36,055 bases of DNA from Spirochaetales bacterium. Its GTDB lineage: Bacteria; Spirochaetota; Spirochaetia; JABEVK01. Positions 2,198 to 18,008 of the stretch are shown in pieces. A program made the translations under genes and the position numbers. The DNA lies in NCBI GenBank assembly GCA_013044245.1, contig JABEVK010000107.1, forward strand, positions 1 to 36,055. The letters are read 5' to 3'. The notes under the pieces are model-generated. The model searched no databases, had not been told where the DNA came from, and saw only the letters and a program-made list of their open reading frames with translations. Every line of letters starts with the position of its first letter. Position 1 is the first letter of the stretch.

Positions 2198-3378
2198 GCG
2201 ATACCGTAACCCGGCTGATCCTTGGAGAACGTGAATACGTTATTATTGGGACCGCCCATGTGTCACAGGCCAGCATCCAAGAAGTCACCGAGGTCATCCG
2301 GGCCGAATCGCCAGACCTTGTTGCCGTAGAACTTGATGCGGGGCGTTACCGTTCGCTCGCAGAACCCCAAACTTGGGAAAAGCTCGATATCTTTGATGTT
2401 CTTAAAAAACGGCAAGGGTTTCTCTTGTTAGCCAATTTGGCACTTTCTTCCTTTCAGAAGAAAATTGGCGACAACGTTGCCGCTAAACCCGGGCAAGAAA
2501 TGTTGGCAGCCGTACAGGTTGCGCAAGAACTGAATATTCCCTTTGAGTTGATTGACCGAGAAATTCAAATTACTTTACGTCGTGCTTGGAAACGTTCGAG
2601 TCTATGGGGAAAAAATAAGCTTTTGGCCTTACTGCTAAGTTCGGTCTTCAGCTCTGAGAAGAAATTAGAAGAACAGGATATTGAGTCTCTAAAAAAGAAG
2701 AATGAACTTGACCATATGATGGATGAATTGGCAAAAGAGCTCCCCACAGTCAAGTCCGTACTGATTGATGAGCGTGACCGATATCTCGCTTCAAAACTTT
2801 ACGAGTCTGTAGGAAAAAAATTTGTAGTCGTGGTAGGAGCCGGGCATGTTCCGGGGATGTCCCGTGTTCTGAAAGACCTTCATTCCGGTCTATCCACGTC
2901 CGATGTGACTGACATCAATGTGATTCCGCCGCCATCTTGGTGGAGTCGCGTATGGCCATTCTTGATCCCTGCCGCGATTATTGGACTGATCGTAACGGGC
3001 ATTCTTGTGAAAGGAAGTGCCGCGCTCCTGCCTATTCTTGCCAGTCTTGCTTTAACAACGGCAGGCTTTGCTGTTTTAGGCTCACTGCTAGCCTTGGCTC
3101 ATCCTGTGACAATTCTTGTTGCGGCAATCACTGCTCCGGTGGCTGCTCTGTTCCACCCCTTGGTTCATGTCTTTTATTTTACCGGTACATCCGAAGCTTC
3201 GCTACGTAAGCCCCGTGTCCGCGACTTAGAAAACCTTTCTGCTGACTCTTCTTCACTCAGGGGCTTCTATCGAAACAGGGTTTTACGCATTCTTTTGGTC
3301 GTATTATTTTCAACAGTCGGGGCCACGATTGGCATGTACGCCACGCTGCCCGTTCTGTTGAAAACTTTTTTTGGCTAA
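2194..3378 (+). CDS. TraB/PrgY-family membrane protein
   Basis: A 394-residue protein with the TraB-family core at the N-terminus: GTAHVS around H22, an acidic ELDAGRY segment near residue 48 and a second conserved GAGHVPGM near residue 216. The C-terminal third holds three to five hydrophobic stretches (about residues 255-275, 282-330 and 370-390), so the catalytic-type domain is anchored in the membrane. TraB was named for pheromone shut-off in enterococci. The fold is related to the Tiki/EreA-type metal-dependent hydrolases, and bacterial chromosomal members are mostly uncharacterised. It overlaps the DHH phosphoesterase by four bases, indicating one translational unit. It is convergent with the LysM gene, with 36 bases between the stops and no clear intrinsic terminator. 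The family call is good; the function is unknown. Confidence 0.85.
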   Translation: MSDTVTRLILGEREYVIIGTAHVSQASIQEVTEVIRAESPDLVAVELDAGRYRSLAEPQTWEKLDIFDVLKKRQGFLLLANLALSSFQKKIGDNVAAKPGQEMLAAVQVAQELNIPFELIDREIQITLRRAWKRSSLWGKNKLLALLLSSVFSSEKKLEEQDIESLKKKNELDHMMDELAKELPTVKSVLIDERDRYLASKLYESVGKKFVVVVGAGHVPGMSRVLKDLHSGLSTSDVTDINVIPPPSWWSRVWPFLIPAAIIGLIVTGILVKGSAALLPILASLALTTAGFAVLGSLLALAHPVTILVAAITAPVAALFHPLVHVFYFTGTSEASLRKPRVRDLENLSADSSSLRGFYRNRVLRILLVVLFSTVGATIGMYATLPVLLKTFFG

Positions 3379-4054: not shown

Positions 4055-5068
4055 TTATCTTATCGGTATCGGGCGAACAGAATCACGAATAATCAAATTG
4101 GGGTTAATCAAATGGATAGGCGAAGGTGCTCCACCCTTGAGCTTCTCGAACAAATACTGAACCGCAGACGCCCCCATTTCAATGGGATTTTGCCCGATTG
4201 TCGTCAAGCCTGGGTCAGAGTACTCACCAGCTAAAACGTTATCATAGCCGATGATACTGACATCAGAAGGAATCTTGTATCCTTGCTCCTTGAGTGCTTT
4301 CACTGCCCCTAAGGCCATGTAGTCGTTGGCCGCCAATAGCGCCGTAGGAAGATGGCCTTGACGAATCATTTCTTGCGTTCGACGGTACCCGCTATCCTTG
4401 GTAAAGTCCCCTCGGAGGATTTTGATTTTACTTTCTAGACCGTGTGAAGTCATATAGCGGCGGTAAGCATCCTCGCGAATCATCGCCACAGGAGAAACTT
4501 CTGGTCCACCCAAATGGGCTATTGAACGATGGCCATTTTGCCATAAATGATCTAAGGCTAATCGGATACCTTGGTCATTATCCGAACTTATAAACCCAAC
4601 ATGATCACCTTTCAATTCAAAGTCAATTATGCAAACAGGAATCTGCGACGCGGCGATTTCGGCAAGGTGTGGATCGTCTGACGTCATGCCTATAAAGATA
4701 ACACCTTCAACATGTTTTTCTTGACATAATCGAATGTATGACTTTTGATTAGACAGGTCTCTTGTCATAGTAAACATGAGAAGATCGTAGCCATTATTAG
4801 ACGAAGCCGTCGCGATTCCATCAAGAAATTGCGTACCGAAGTTTTCCATAAAATTAATTTCTGCACGACTAAGAAAGAATACGCCCAGTGTGTTACTTTT
4901 TTTTGTCACCAAACGTCGGGCAAATGTATTGGGCGAATAGCCTAGCTCAGTTGCTAACTTTTTAATTTTTTCTTTTGTTTCAGCGGCAACGAGAGGGCTA
5001 TCATTTAGACTTCGCGAGACTGTCGAATGCGTGACCCCTGCCAAGCGAGCAATATCTTTTATTGTCAT
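4055..5068 (-). CDS. LacI-family transcriptional regulator of the adjacent sugar ABC operon
   Basis: About 337 residues. It has the standard LacI layout: an N-terminal helix-turn-helix (MTIKDIARLAGVTHSTVSRSL), the hinge helix near NTFARRLVTKKS, then a periplasmic-binding-protein-like ligand domain. The start at 5068 is preferred over the in-frame ATG at 5086 because LacI proteins begin at MTIKDIA and because GAGGAG lies about ten bases upstream of 5068, whereas the upstream ATG has no ribosome site. The gene is divergent from the sugar-binding lipoprotein gene at 5315, whose promoter region carries a perfect CACACGTGTG palindrome of the central-CG type that LacI proteins bind. The effector is probably a maltodextrin or related sugar, judged from the transporter and glucan enzymes next door. 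The ligand itself is not visible in the sequence. Confidence 0.92.
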   Translation of the reverse strand: MTIKDIARLAGVTHSTVSRSLNDSPLVAAETKEKIKKLATELGYSPNTFARRLVTKKSNTLGVFFLSRAEINFMENFGTQFLDGIATASSNNGYDLLMFTMTRDLSNQKSYIRLCQEKHVEGVIFIGMTSDDPHLAEIAASQIPVCIIDFELKGDHVGFISSDNDQGIRLALDHLWQNGHRSIAHLGGPEVSPVAMIREDAYRRYMTSHGLESKIKILRGDFTKDSGYRRTQEMIRQGHLPTALLAANDYMALGAVKALKEQGYKIPSDVSIIGYDNVLAGEYSDPGLTTIGQNPIEMGASAVQYLFEKLKGGAPSPIHLINPNLIIRDSVRPIPIR

Positions 5069-5116
5069 AGTCAATTCGCTCCTCATGTAGACACCAAGAT
5101 GCTACCAAACGCAATC

Positions 5117-5145
5117 ATCATGAGCCTAAACGAAATTTCTGACAA
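5117..5145 (-). promoter_or_regulatory. candidate promoter of the lacI-type gene
   Basis: On the minus strand, TTGTCA (5140-5145) and CATGAT (5117-5122) are separated by 17 bases, matching five of six and four of six sigma-70 consensus positions. A start near 5110 would give a leader of about 40 bases before the ATG at 5068. Found by eye; the -10 is weak. Confidence 0.35.
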
Positions 5146-5222
5146 GCATCAAAAAAAATCTTAACCGAGCATTCCCCCTGTCCCATTGCGTTCACCGCAC
5201 GCACTTTTCTTGTATTTAACTC

Positions 5223-5250
5223 TTGACAACCGCCCATACGGGGTTAAAAT
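5223..5250 (+). promoter_or_regulatory. sigma-70 promoter of the sugar-binding-protein gene
   Basis: A perfect -35 TTGACA (5223-5228) and a near-perfect -10 TAAAAT (5245-5250) are separated by 16 bases. Transcription would start near 5257, about 58 bases upstream of the ATG at 5315. This is the strongest promoter-like sequence I noticed in the window. The LacI-type palindrome lies just downstream of it. Confidence 0.7.
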
Positions 5251-5264
5251 GAGGTTACTCTTAT

Positions 5265-5278
5265 TGCACACGTGTGTA
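5265..5278. promoter_or_regulatory. LacI-type operator, perfect palindrome CACACGTGTG
   Basis: The ten-base perfect palindrome CACACGTGTG lies at 5267-5276 with a central CG, extended by a matching T/A pair at 5265/5278. It starts about ten bases downstream of the expected transcription start of the strong promoter at 5223-5250. Bound repressor would therefore block initiation or early elongation. The central CpG and the position fit operators of LacI-family regulators, and a LacI-family gene is divergent from it. Assignment to that regulator is inference. Confidence 0.6.
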
Positions 5279-5314
5279 TGCGGATCAGAGTAAATCACCA
5301 AAAGGAGGAATCGC

Positions 5315-6616
5315 ATGAAGAGCTTCACAAAAGCACTTTTTACGATGTCCACAGTGGCCCTTCTGGGCCTCGGAGTTGCGGCGTGTTCGAAACCGGCACC
5401 CAAAACCATCACTCTTCGTTTGAGCCTGTATAAGCAGGAAATCGCGAAGCAATTCAAAGACCTCACGGATGCTTTTACAGCAGCCAACCCCGGGATCGTC
5501 ATCAATACGGAAATTACTCCCAATGATGGTGGCGCTGCCCAAGCTGCCGCCGCTGCGGCTGGTAAACTGCCCGACATCATTCAATCGCCTGCTTACGCAG
5601 CGGACTTCCAGTTGGCAAAACAAGGTTATGCAGTAGATTTGACCAATCTGCCCGTCATCAAGGATGTAAACCCGGATCTGCTCGATGGCGTGACTTACGA
5701 AGGCAAAATCATTGCCCTTCCCACCGATGTTGGAACCCTAGGCATCCTCTACAACAAAGCGATTTTCGCCAAGTATAACCTCAAAGTACCCACCACTTAT
5801 CTCGAACTGCAACAGGTGGCTCAGACTTTGAAGAAAAACAAAATTACACCGTTTGCTGGCCTGTTGAAAGAAAACTGGTCGATCGGTCACTTCATGGAAC
5901 TTCTGCATGGTTCAATGCTGGGCGCCAAGGGCTATGATGGCCTCAAAGGCTCTGCTGCAATAGCGAAATTTGCTGAAGACATGAATCAAGGTAAAGCTGA
6001 CTGGGGCAAAGTTGTTGACCTGAAGGCCATGTTCCGAATCATGGACTGGTACCACTCCAACATGAGCAAGAATGCCCTCAATAACGCTTGGAATGAAGAA
6101 GTTGCAGAGTTTGCTTCGGGCAAAACGGCCATGGTTGTCCAAGGTCAATGGTTCATCAACCCTACTATTGCCGCCGAAAAAGCCGCCAACACCAATTTCG
6201 ATATTGGGTTCTTCCCCTTCACATGGTCAAACAACCCTGCTGAAAACAAGTTCTTCTCTTCGGCCGACTCGACCTTTGTCTTGTCAACTCAGTCTTCCCC
6301 CGAAAAACAAGCCGCTGCTGAAAAGTTCCTTAACTTCTTGGCTACCCCTGAAGCTATCAAGATTTGGACTGGCGAATTCAAACTCGTCCCGGCGTTCAAA
6401 GACGCCGACTTGAGCAGTATGCCCTCTGCTTTTGGCGACATCGCTGCAAGCGAAAGCAAGTTGGGCAGCTACTCCTGGGAATTCTCTTTGGCTCCTGACC
6501 CCACGTGGGAAAATGCTATGAAAAACGGTGCACTCGGTTACGTTCTGGGAAAAATGACTCCCGATCAAATCGCCGCCAGCATCAATAAGTCCTGGAAAGA
6601 AAACTACAAGAACTAA
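5315..6616 (+). CDS. sugar ABC transporter substrate-binding lipoprotein (MalE-like)
   Basis: 433 residues. An N-terminal lipoprotein signal has a hydrophobic core and a VAAC lipobox with the acylated Cys at 24. The mature part is a solute-binding protein of the carbohydrate family: an LSLYKQEIAKQFKDLTDAF opening, an aromatic-rich C-terminal half and a late KFLNFLATPEAIKIW motif typical of MalE/UgpB-type proteins. It would capture an oligosaccharide in the periplasm and deliver it to the permease pair encoded at 6732 and 8255. The ATG is preceded by a strong AAAGGAGG. The gene sits behind a near-consensus promoter and a LacI-type operator and is followed at once by a strong terminator, so it is probably expressed above the permeases. 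Maltodextrin as substrate is inferred from malQ and the GH13 gene. Confidence 0.9.
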   Translation: MKSFTKALFTMSTVALLGLGVAACSKPAPKTITLRLSLYKQEIAKQFKDLTDAFTAANPGIVINTEITPNDGGAAQAAAAAAGKLPDIIQSPAYAADFQLAKQGYAVDLTNLPVIKDVNPDLLDGVTYEGKIIALPTDVGTLGILYNKAIFAKYNLKVPTTYLELQQVAQTLKKNKITPFAGLLKENWSIGHFMELLHGSMLGAKGYDGLKGSAAIAKFAEDMNQGKADWGKVVDLKAMFRIMDWYHSNMSKNALNNAWNEEVAEFASGKTAMVVQGQWFINPTIAAEKAANTNFDIGFFPFTWSNNPAENKFFSSADSTFVLSTQSSPEKQAAAEKFLNFLATPEAIKIWTGEFKLVPAFKDADLSSMPSAFGDIAASESKLGSYSWEFSLAPDPTWENAMKNGALGYVLGKMTPDQIAASINKSWKENYKN

Positions 6617-14808: not shown

Positions 14809-15423
14809 TCAACCGTTATCGAGTGTTTCCCGACGGCGGATCTCATCGCGAACGTGAGCCGCTTCTTCGTAATTTTCTTGCGCTACTAGCGCTTCCAGTT
14901 GTTCTTTAAGCCGAGCCAGAATCTGCTCTGCTTCGGATGCTTCTTCGTCCGAGAGCACTGCTTCTGTTTCATCGGTCGCGTCGATCTCATCAATCTCGCC
15001 GACCGGGGGAGCCGCTTGCTGAAGCTGATCAATGTCGATGCCCGCTTCTTCTACCAGGGCTGATTCGATCCAAATCGAACACGACGCTCGCACCGCCAGA
15101 GCCAAACCATCCGAAGGACGGGCATCGATTTCAACCAGCTTGCCGTCTTGTTTCAGAATCAGATTGGCGTAGTAAGTCCCCTCAGAAAGGGTATGGATCA
15201 CGACACGATCAAGGCTCGTGTCGAGTTCTCTCAGCATATGAAGCATCAAGTCATGGGTGAGCGGCCGGGGAATTTCCACTTCACCCAGCCCCAGCAAGAT
15301 ATTTTGCGCTTCTAGCGGGCCGATAAAAATGGGAACTGCTTTTTCTTCCGTCAAGGGCTTTACCAAAACAGCGTTCCCCTGATCGGTTTTAGCCACTGTC
15401 CAGATTTTGGCTTCAACCAGCAT
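14809..15423 (-). CDS. bifunctional nuclease family protein (DUF151) with C-terminal UVR motif
   Basis: 204 residues. Residues 1 to about 130 form the DUF151/BFN domain, recognisable by PIFIGPLEAQNILLGLG, RPLTHDLMLHML and the late VEIDARPSDGLALAVR motif. An acidic linker rich in Glu and Asp (about 131-165) leads to a UVR-type coiled hairpin (about 168-200; LKEQLEALVAQENYEEAAHVRDEIRRRE contains its core), like the UvrB/UvrC contact motif. BFN proteins were described with RNase and DNase activity, and the UVR motif mediates protein contacts in excision repair and in Clp adaptors. The start overlaps the malic-enzyme stop by one base (TAATG), with AGGGAG upstream, so translation is coupled. Its placement between malate and glucan enzymes is functionally unexplained. 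Confidence 0.9.
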   Translation of the reverse strand: MLVEAKIWTVAKTDQGNAVLVKPLTEEKAVPIFIGPLEAQNILLGLGEVEIPRPLTHDLMLHMLRELDTSLDRVVIHTLSEGTYYANLILKQDGKLVEIDARPSDGLALAVRASCSIWIESALVEEAGIDIDQLQQAAPPVGEIDEIDATDETEAVLSDEEASEAEQILARLKEQLEALVAQENYEEAAHVRDEIRRRETLDNG

Positions 15424-16886
15424 TACAACTCCCTTTTCGCCGAATTCTGCAGGTAGTGAATCAGGGTATCAAAGTCCACATACCCTTTTGCTAGGGCGAT
15501 TTCTCCAAATAGGCGTTTATCGCCCGTTTTCTGCAAGGTTAGAACTTCTTGACACTGTCCGGACGACAGCACACCGAGACGAACCAATCCTTCTCCAATT
15601 TTTTCTTGATAGTGATTAGCAGGCATCTCTTTCACCTCCCAGTGCCTATTGATATTCCTGGAACGCGCCAGCATGGCTTGAATCTTGCGGACAAGATCGG
15701 TGCGCGGTAAGTCGAGTTGGGCAACCCCAGATTTCTGGGCAGCCTGCGCCACAGCCAAGGCAACGGCAAAAACGAGGGAGGGGTGGAAGGGTCGAGGCAC
15801 CACCACACCCTGAGCGCGCTCTTCGGGGGGAACTAACTCGGCGATTGCACGCGCCGCCGCCAATTTCATTTCTTGATTGACTTCGGTGGCCCGCACGTCT
15901 AAAGCACCACGAAAAATCCCCGGAAAAGCCAAAACATTATTGATTTGATTCGGCAAATCCGAGCGCCCGGTGGCTATCACCTTCGCCCCCGCTTTGAGTG
16001 CCTCGCCGGGAAGGATTTCAGGGTCAGGATTGGCCAGAGCAAACACCACGGGCTGGCTGGCCATAAAACCAATCCACTCGGGGCGGAGCACACGAGGAGC
16101 ACTCACACCGATAAACACATCGGCCCCTTTTAAGGCATCGGGTAAAGCGCCTCGAAGACGGCGTGGGTTAGAAACTTGCGCCAGCTCGCGCATCGCCGTA
16201 CTGAAACTTTCTTGAGAATCTTGAATAATGCCGTCTCGATCACAGACGACCACATCGACCACTCCTGCGTTGAGAATCATCCTCGAAATGGCCGTCCCAG
16301 CGGAACCGGCACCGTTGACGACAACACGCAAGGAGGTAAAGGGTTTACCTACGACGGTAGCAGCATTCATGAGCGCAGCCAACACCACCACAGCTGTTCC
16401 ATGCTGATCATCGTGAAACACCGGGATCGAAAGCGAGTCCTGCAAGGCCTTTTCTACGTAAAAACACCGGGGAGCAGAAATATCTTCGAGGTTAATGCCC
16501 CCAAACGATGGCGCCAAGGCCCGCACCACTTGAATGATTTCATCGGGGTCTTGCGTCGACAGAACCAACGGAACGCTGTCGATGCCAGCAAAATCTTTAA
16601 ACAGGAGAGACTTACCCTCCATGACAGGTAAACCGGCCTCGGGACCGATATTTCCCAAGCCCAGCACGGCACTTCCGTCACTGATGACCGCCACCAAGTT
16701 GCCCTTTCCCGTGTAGCGATAAACATCCTCGGGATTTTTCGCTATGGCGCGACAGGGGGCTGCGACGCCAGGCGTATACAGCAACGCCAAATCGTCATTG
16801 CTAGACGCATGACGTTTGGGTACCGTCTCGAGTTTGCCTCGCAATTTTTCATGGAGCTCCAGCGACGCTTGATCAATATCCTGCAT
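15423..16886 (-). CDS. malic enzyme with an added C-terminal MshEN/GspE-N-like module
   Basis: 487 residues, about 80-90 more than common short bacterial malic enzymes. Residues 1 to about 400 are the malic enzyme: catalytic Tyr37 in LLYTPGVA, a [13 protein letters not shown] lysine segment, metal ligands in [23 protein letters not shown], and the Rossmann GAGSAGTA. The enzyme decarboxylates malate to pyruvate, reducing NAD(P). After a linker, residues about 429-480 hold two copies of the short repeat found in the MshEN/GspE N-terminal fold: [12 protein letters not shown]...QEVLTLQ and [12 protein letters not shown]...LIHYLQ. That fold binds cyclic di-GMP in MshE and some PilB proteins. The key Arg of repeat one is Lys here and repeat two has LFG for RLG, so ligand binding is unproven. 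The gene directly follows a diguanylate cyclase gene. No clear ribosome site precedes the ATG. Confidence 0.9.
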
Positions 16887-16958: not shown

Positions 16959-18008
16959 CTACTCAGCGAGGCAGACGCGATTACGACCAGCCTCTTTAGA
17001 ACGATACATGGCCTGGTCAACACGTTCAATAAAGGGTTGCGACGAGAGGTCTTTGGTGGGTTGGAACTCGGCAACTCCTAAAGAAACAGTCACCGAAAGG
17101 AGATGGTCATTAAATCGGACCACAATGCTTTCGACCGCTTGGCGAATACGCTCCGCCACCTCAGTAGCCTGTTCTAAGGCAGTCTCAGGAACTAAAATAA
17201 TGAACTCTTCACCACCGTAACGAGCGGCCAAATCAATATTGCGAACATTATCGAGCACCTTTCGTGCCACCGCCTTCAGTACTTCGTCTCCCGCCAAATG
17301 CCCGTAAGTATCGTTAAGCCGCTTAAAGTGGTCGATATCGAGCATGATGAGGCTAAAGGGCGGACGCCCCTTTTCCCACCGCTGAACCCGTTCCTGAAGT
17401 GTGTTAAAAAAGACATGCTTGAGCTTGAGTTTCGTCATCATGTCGGTGGTGGTCATATCGTACAGAAAAGCGTTGTACATGGCGATGGCGGCAAAACTGC
17501 CAATATTCAACAGGTAAGATTTGTCTCGTTCGTCGAAACCCGAACCACCGATTTTTTCGCCCAAGATCAAAAGCCCGTTAATTGCCCCCTTGGCTCTGAG
17601 GGGGACAATAATAGTAGGGTCAATACTGCGAAGGACCTCAATTTCTGGGCTAGGCGGCAAGACTTTTTCAAGATCTTGCAGGGTGTGGCACTGAAAACGC
17701 GAATTCATGTATTCGATCAAGCCGCTTTTTTCGGGGATGGAGTAGTCCCGTTCATGGTCGATCTCGAAGCCTAAAAAGCCGCGGTGCAAAGAAAAATCCA
17801 CCGAATCTATGCTTTTTTTGGAAAAGAATGCGGCCTTCATGACAGTTAAGGCCCCTAAACAGGTGTAGAGGATAGAATCGTTAAGAAAATTGTAGTCAAG
17901 GGTGGACGTCAGGCTCTTACTGATCTCAAGCAAATTCTTCAGATCAAAGATTTCTTTTTCGAGATCTTGTTTTGTAACCTTTCGCCCTTCCAAGCTTTTT
18001 GATGACAT
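16959..18008 (-). CDS. GAF-like/GGDEF diguanylate cyclase
   Basis: 349 residues. A short coiled start (about 10-30) precedes a GAF-like sensory domain (about 30-185), and the GGDEF domain covers about 190-349. Active-site features include LDIDHFKRLNDTYGHLAGDE for metal and nucleotide binding and the signature GGEEF at 265-269. An inhibitory-site RxxD (R256-N-I-D259) sits the standard five residues before it, implying an active, product-inhibited cyclase that makes cyclic di-GMP from two GTP. It has no membrane helix, so it is cytoplasmic. The ATG lies nine bases after purQ without a strong ribosome site, suggesting coupling to the purine genes. It is followed after 72 bases by the malic enzyme gene, whose tail resembles a cyclic-di-GMP-binding fold. 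The ligand of the GAF-like domain is unknown. Confidence 0.93.
   Translation of the reverse strand: MSSKSLEGRKVTKQDLEKEIFDLKNLLEISKSLTSTLDYNFLNDSILYTCLGALTVMKAAFFSKKSIDSVDFSLHRGFLGFEIDHERDYSIPEKSGLIEYMNSRFQCHTLQDLEKVLPPSPEIEVLRSIDPTIIVPLRAKGAINGLLILGEKIGGSGFDERDKSYLLNIGSFAAIAMYNAFLYDMTTTDMMTKLKLKHVFFNTLQERVQRWEKGRPPFSLIMLDIDHFKRLNDTYGHLAGDEVLKAVARKVLDNVRNIDLAARYGGEEFIILVPETALEQATEVAERIRQAVESIVVRFNDHLLSVTVSLGVAEFQPTKDLSSQPFIERVDQAMYRSKEAGRNRVCLAE

Follow-up and report, generated by a model that had tools for sequence, protein, structure and literature searches.

A malic enzyme tail in a Spirochaetales bacterium is probably a captured small MshEN-fold protein rather than a canonical cyclic di-GMP receptor

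The malic enzyme described here carries a C-terminal tail and is encoded next to a diguanylate cyclase, which raises the question of whether a metabolic enzyme is regulated directly by cyclic di-GMP (c-di-GMP). The window is the whole stretch of DNA that was analysed, 36,055 nucleotides of contig JABEVK010000107.1 from a Spirochaetales bacterium. The original prediction held that the tail consists of two tandem repeats of the MshEN fold, the c-di-GMP receptor of MshE and PilB-type ATPases, and that together with the cyclase it suggests direct second-messenger control of malate decarboxylation. The reading favoured here, at a probability of roughly 60%, is that the tail is a captured stand-alone small protein of the MshEN fold, fused through loss of a stop codon, probably still made alone, and serving as a docking module and not as a canonical receptor. 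The features on which the analysis is based are as follows.

14809-15423, minus strand: protein of 204 aa with a BFN/DUF151 bifunctional nuclease domain (PF02577, E = 1.5e-35) and a UVR motif (PF02151, E = 5e-6)
15423-16886, minus strand: fused malic enzyme gene, a continuous open frame of 487 aa
15423-15626, minus strand: mini-MshEN module, or nested gene, M421-L487 and stop TAA, 67 aa; a separate gene in relatives, with a predicted four-helix fold
15441-15512, minus strand: repeat (motif) II, residues 459-482 after R458, a degenerate half-site by family statistics
15531-15602, minus strand: repeat (motif) I, residues 429-452, a near-canonical half-site by family alignment
15627-15698, minus strand: linker, residues 397-420, the old gene junction and leader, variable in length and sequence with the frame kept
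15633-15640, minus strand: putative Shine-Dalgarno sequence GGGAGGTG, by anti-Shine-Dalgarno pairing, within the malic enzyme frame and encoding part of W416-E417-V418
15699-16886, minus strand: compact malic enzyme (malate oxidoreductase) core, residues 1-396, by Pfam and PDB matches
16959-18008, minus strand: DgcA-like GAF-GGDEF diguanylate cyclase of 349 aa (NF041606), in the same operon orientation upstream of the malic enzyme

The frame at 15423-16886 is unbroken over its 487 codons, and malic enzyme and tail form one gene, as had been predicted. An assembly or frameshift artefact was ruled out as the source of the fusion because the same fused frame recurs in two further genomes, G001 and G006. 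The core possesses the malic N and NAD-binding domains of a compact malic enzyme (PF00390, malic, E = 3e-29; PF03949, Malic_M, E = 5e-23) together with its catalytic residues, the sequence motifs in which the Tyr, Lys, Glu and Asp are expected being present along with QINN. The nearest solved chains are 5cee (E = 2e-128), 2a9f and 1ww8, all with E-values below 1e-115, and their alignments end at approximately residues 386-396 of the fused protein, short of the tail.

The profile evidence for the MshEN character of the tail is divided. Pfam PF05157 matches neither the tail nor, even at E = 1, anything else in the window's own genome, whereas NF053729, an NCBIfam model of 53 positions for the MshE-related c-di-GMP motif, matches the tail at E = 1e-7 with a score of 31.5-32.5 bits, below its cut-off of 38; neither model recognizes the tail above its curated cut-off. 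The Pfam model was rejected as too narrow a criterion, since NCBIfam and PDB profiles do match. A phmmer search aligned the tail with MshE (5htl) at E = 5e-4, and a profile of 15 tail relatives matched 5htl at E = 7e-7, with PilF and PilB next. When the tail was shuffled 200,000 times, a relaxed version of the repeat arose in 14 cases, which argues against a chance resemblance. The AlphaFold2 model of the tail, computed from three input sequences only, contains four helices with a pLDDT of 78 overall and about 90 in the core. Among 350,542 PDB chains searched with Foldseek, MshE ranked first and second and the GSPII-A domain of PilF third. Superposition on the first-ranked 5HTL (MshE with c-di-GMP) yields an rmsd of 0.9-1.3 Å over about 54 residues, and 9g1w is also among the top matches; the Foldseek E-values are poor, as expected for only 73 residues. 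Because NF053729, the MshE matches, the predicted structure and the shuffles agree, assignment of the modelled tail to the four-helix MshEN_N fold is considered sound. Both the fold and the two tandem repeats of the original prediction are borne out, the latter at residues 429-452 and about 458-482, where they match NF053729 and MshE.

The published motif reads RLGxx(LVI)(LVI)xxG(LVI)(LVI)xxxxLxxxLxxQ, and the two repeats resemble it to very different degrees. In motif I of the window, K1, I2, G3, G10 and Q24 are acceptable; the Cys at position 17 lies outside the published relaxed pattern, which the repeat matches once Cys is admitted there. Within the family of related small proteins, motif I has R or K at the first position in 58 of 61 members and retains the Gly and Q24 in 61 of 61 each. 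Motif II of the window reads L1, F2, G3 and S24 and does not have the combination Arg1, Leu2, Gly3 and Gln24; the Lys for Arg in repeat 1 and the LFG of repeat 2 are as originally described. The departure in motif II is family-wide (n = 60): position 1 is Leu in 49 members, Arg in 6, Met in 3 and Lys in 2, so that 52 have neither R nor K; position 2 is Phe in all; Gln24 is missing in 58 and present in 2; and the relaxed motif II is matched by 2. An Arg stands one residue before position 1 in 51 of the 60. In the non-binding GSPII-A domain of Thermus PilF, both Gln and the motif II Arg were needed to restore measurable binding, and Ser at the motif II Arg position abolished c-di-GMP binding (PMC12002112); in XpsE, binding was lost via similar changes (PMC5013675). 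With motif II degenerate and equivalent losses abolishing binding in PilF GSPII-A, canonical c-di-GMP control of malate decarboxylation appears unlikely, and canonical binding by the tail itself is judged unlikely from its residues.

The origin of the tail is evident from its relatives. A search of 60 related genomes showed the tail joined to the malic enzyme in three only: G000 and G001, which belong to the window's genus, and G006, a member of the same family. Outside these, the tail is mostly encoded by a short open frame of its own, some 65 aa long. Five genomes share the order cyclase - malic enzyme - mini-MshEN - BFN - malQ, with the small gene fused in three and separate in two, G003 and G005 (separate tail genes at loci L003/L145 and L005/L146). 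In G003 the small gene lies 26 nt downstream of the malic enzyme, and in G005 it is in the malic enzyme's frame with a single TGA between them, the order in both being otherwise that of the window. This synteny rules out independent acquisition of the domain by the malic enzyme. In the malic enzyme tree the fused forms constitute one clade, with support of 0.93, apart from the separate ones, and because they cluster a single stop-codon loss explains the fusions. The order purL - purQ - tail - BFN in G041 suggests that cyclase and malic enzyme were later inserted between purQ and the tail gene, which probably predates its link to either. Two other genomes of the window's family were observed to differ: G002 has neither a tail nor a malic enzyme match, and G004 has a different, tail-less malic enzyme (40% identity).

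The junction retains traces of this history. Residues 412-422 are predicted to be disordered (pLDDT below 50), and among G000, G001 and G006 the linker differs in sequence and by indels of +1 and +5 residues. It is nonetheless open and in frame in all three, though synonymous sites are saturated (pS about 0.76 or more), and a random 27-codon linker would stay open in 27% of cases by a rough estimate; the fused frame is therefore probably kept by selection. One feature escaped the original prediction: codon 421 is an internal ATG, and a very strong Shine-Dalgarno sequence lies in front of it. GGGAGGTGAAAGAG precedes this in-frame ATG in the window, and its anti-Shine-Dalgarno pairing, at -14.5 kcal/mol, surpasses that of every other candidate start within the gene (90 in total; runner-up, -8.7) and is the strongest of seven starts scored in the gene cluster. 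At the start of the malic enzyme itself the score is +1.2, a weak signal. Since the codon 421 signal is the strongest, the window genome probably also produces the 67-aa protein on its own, and this and the 487-aa fusion would both exist; part of the signal's strength may reflect codon constraint, and a strong Shine-Dalgarno sequence is no proof of initiation. In G001, ATG424 scores -9.3, which is among the better sites of that gene and not unique. Scoring of candidate starts in the corresponding region of G006 gave no good internal start; the fusion is probably the sole product there, an argument for a role of the fused form itself.

The free counterparts of the tail constitute a family defined here as mini-MshEN, a unit of about 65 residues with an I-G...Q plus RLFGEIA signature that is normally encoded by its own gene. 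The tail belongs to this family, of which 60 loci were aligned; the syntenic gene is separate in G003 and G005 and fused in the window. Of 395 genomes of the class searched with a profile, 103 encode mini-MshEN, with up to eight copies each. FlaA (PF04620) occurs in 16 of 21 close relatives and 0 of 14 controls, from which we infer that the class of the sampled genomes is Spirochaetia-like. A literature search found no report of stand-alone MshEN proteins of Spirochaetes. Where mini-MshEN has a conserved neighbour, the commonest is a BFN nuclease-like gene and not a cyclase: BFN lies directly downstream in 15 of the 60 sampled loci, in six families, and the mini-MshEN and BFN/UVR pair (14809-15626 in the window, and related loci) is often separated by a few bases or overlaps. 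The other neighbours are mixed and include a FliG paralogue, AlaRS, ion channels and a response regulator. In four genomes of family f23 (loci L166, at 4912-6209, L158, L168 and L178), the last 10 nt of a FliG-like gene are shared with the mini-MshEN gene, and at L165 mini-MshEN lies 60 nt downstream of one; the identity of FliG is Pfam-confirmed for L166 and was assigned by eye at the other loci. The overlap makes a link of mini-MshEN to the flagellar motor possible.

Several loci extend the range of contexts. Eight mini-MshEN genes are present in the 4.8-Mb genome G234 (L179, L192-L197); 0.7 kb separates one pair, and others have a response regulator receiver and an oxidoreductase as neighbours. 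The sole contig from scans of viral contigs, IMG/VR contig L218, carries two (2995-3183 and 4160-4513) near a predicted DNA cytosine methyltransferase, a Vsr-like nuclease and an antirepressor-like gene, all named by eye, and is possibly a prophage. G004 encodes a CheA-type kinase (L204:4252-6393) with an MshEN-like stretch, residues 258-313, between its Hpt and dimerisation domains.

The cyclase upstream of the malic enzyme is of the DgcA type. It passes the curated equivalog model NF041606 (385 bits against a cut-off of 370; E = 2e-115), and its RNID, LAARY and GGEEF residues leave the RxxD inhibitory site and the active site intact, in agreement with the original prediction. In each of the five same-family genomes having the locus, it is the malic enzyme's neighbour. 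However, cyclase and malic enzyme share an operon with the tail only in the window genome's taxonomic family: no cyclase occurs in an operon with a mini-MshEN gene outside that family among the 60 sampled loci, and no similar cyclase lies within 1.5 kb of the malic enzymes of G007 and G010. The predicted association of tail and cyclase thus holds for the same-family genomes with the locus and fails at the loci sampled elsewhere, which excludes the cyclase as a general partner of the tail. A domain search of the window genome yielded 15 GGDEF and 7 PilZ matches, so that c-di-GMP signalling would be possible without the tail module, the seven PilZ domains being candidates for the ordinary receptor. 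No report of c-di-GMP control of a malic enzyme was found in the titles and abstract openings covered by a literature search. On the other side of the tail, the ATG of BFN shares one base with the tail's TAA.

These observations are combined in the following proposal. A stand-alone mini-MshEN protein of about 65 aa would have joined the preceding malic enzyme when the latter lost its stop codon. The sequence strongly suggests that in the window genome one mRNA would now be translated both into the 487-aa fusion and, by initiation at codon 421, into the free protein of 67 aa, whose translation would be coupled to that of BFN. The module would serve as a small domain for docking, or as an adaptor, its partner being perhaps BFN or another copy of itself; it would place the malic enzyme in the complex of this partner and would not be a canonical c-di-GMP receptor. 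A role as BFN adaptor is only one possibility, since the non-BFN neighbours (FliG, AlaRS, ion channels) are very mixed.

Direct regulation of the malic enzyme by a tail that binds c-di-GMP supplied by the adjacent cyclase, as originally predicted, is improbable. Wang et al. found that an isolated MshEN_N of the tail's size suffices for c-di-GMP binding in MshE, that some polar substitutions cost less than fivefold and that imperfect motifs may still bind (PMC5013675); the fold of the tail is right and its motif I near-canonical, the Arg preceding motif II is frequent, and the intact cyclase is adjacent in 5/5 of the same-family loci. However, Arg1 and Gln24 are missing from motif II, and Phe replaces Leu2, across the family, losses whose equivalents abolish binding in PilF GSPII-A (PMC12002112), the unit forms a stand-alone family, and its tie to the cyclase is restricted to one taxonomic family and probably younger than the tail gene. 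It is also doubtful that the fusion is a functionless accident of read-through, with only the free small protein from the internal start being of consequence. The frame is kept in three lineages despite indels and saturated synonymous sites, and G006 has no comparable internal start, although the freely drifting linker sequence and the very strong internal Shine-Dalgarno sequence, set beside the weak malic enzyme start, are what such an accident would leave.

Compact malic enzymes form dimers, and two tails, of such a dimer or as free copies, might pair their motifs I around c-di-GMP or another guanine nucleotide. This arrangement is highly improbable. It is a purely geometric idea and the conservation of motif I may serve the fold alone, even though motif I is near-invariant where motif II is not and the two MshEN half-sites superpose (PMC5013675). 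A malic enzyme dimer gated by its two motifs I, with the operon cyclase signalling and the free tail as a competing partner, is likewise a long shot; if true, carbon flux at the malate-pyruvate node would be under direct second-messenger control. Should the tail bind a nucleotide at all, c-di-GMP would be linked directly to central carbon metabolism.

The captured docking module that we favour instead brings to light a family of stand-alone proteins, 65 residues long and of the MshEN fold, that about a quarter of the sampled genomes of the class possess; its first half-site is conserved and its second rebuilt as RLFGEIA. In these genomes, MshEN-fold units are small single-domain proteins and not parts of secretion ATPases. 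The fusion provides a handle on mini-MshEN function because separate, one-stop-apart and fused stages, the last with or without an internal start, can be compared.

The tail resembles known MshEN/GSPII domains (PF05157, NF053729; MshE of V. cholerae, GSPII-B and GSPII-C of T. thermophilus PilF) in its predicted four-helix MshEN_N fold, its two tandem repeats of about 24 residues, its nearly intact motif I and its size, which is that of the isolated binding subdomain (1-62). It differs in scoring below the curated cut-offs, in a motif II of RLFGEIA instead of RLGxxLL without Gln24, in the absence of MshEN_C and in not residing on a secretion ATPase. The non-binding domains GSPII-A of T. thermophilus PilF, one of its three best structural matches, and XpsE-N of X. 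campestris share the fold and a degenerate motif II that has lost Arg and Gln. However, these belong to ATPases, and the Q24 of motif I is kept in the tail and lost in GSPII-A. The N-terminal segment of EpsG tyrosine kinases (TIGR03029) is matched by 15/15 aligned mini-MshEN members (best E-value 7e-8), with the window tail aligned to model positions 4-49; there the segment is part of a kinase, whereas here it makes up an entire small protein or the tail of the malic enzyme.

The hybrid MaeB malic enzymes also have a module added at the C-terminus, PTA-like in their case, and an Azospirillum MaeB-type enzyme responds to acetyl-CoA and CoA and is a PII target (PMC7646526). The present tail is an unrelated module of 67 aa, against over 300 aa in MaeB, on a compact malic enzyme that normally has no extension. 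Nested in-frame genes such as Cas11b (PMC11899642) and the two-product phage endolysins (PMC9430671) yield, as is predicted for the window, a small protein that equals the C-terminal part of a larger one, with a common stop and an internal ribosome binding site. In contrast to these, mini-MshEN was a separate gene first and was fused later.
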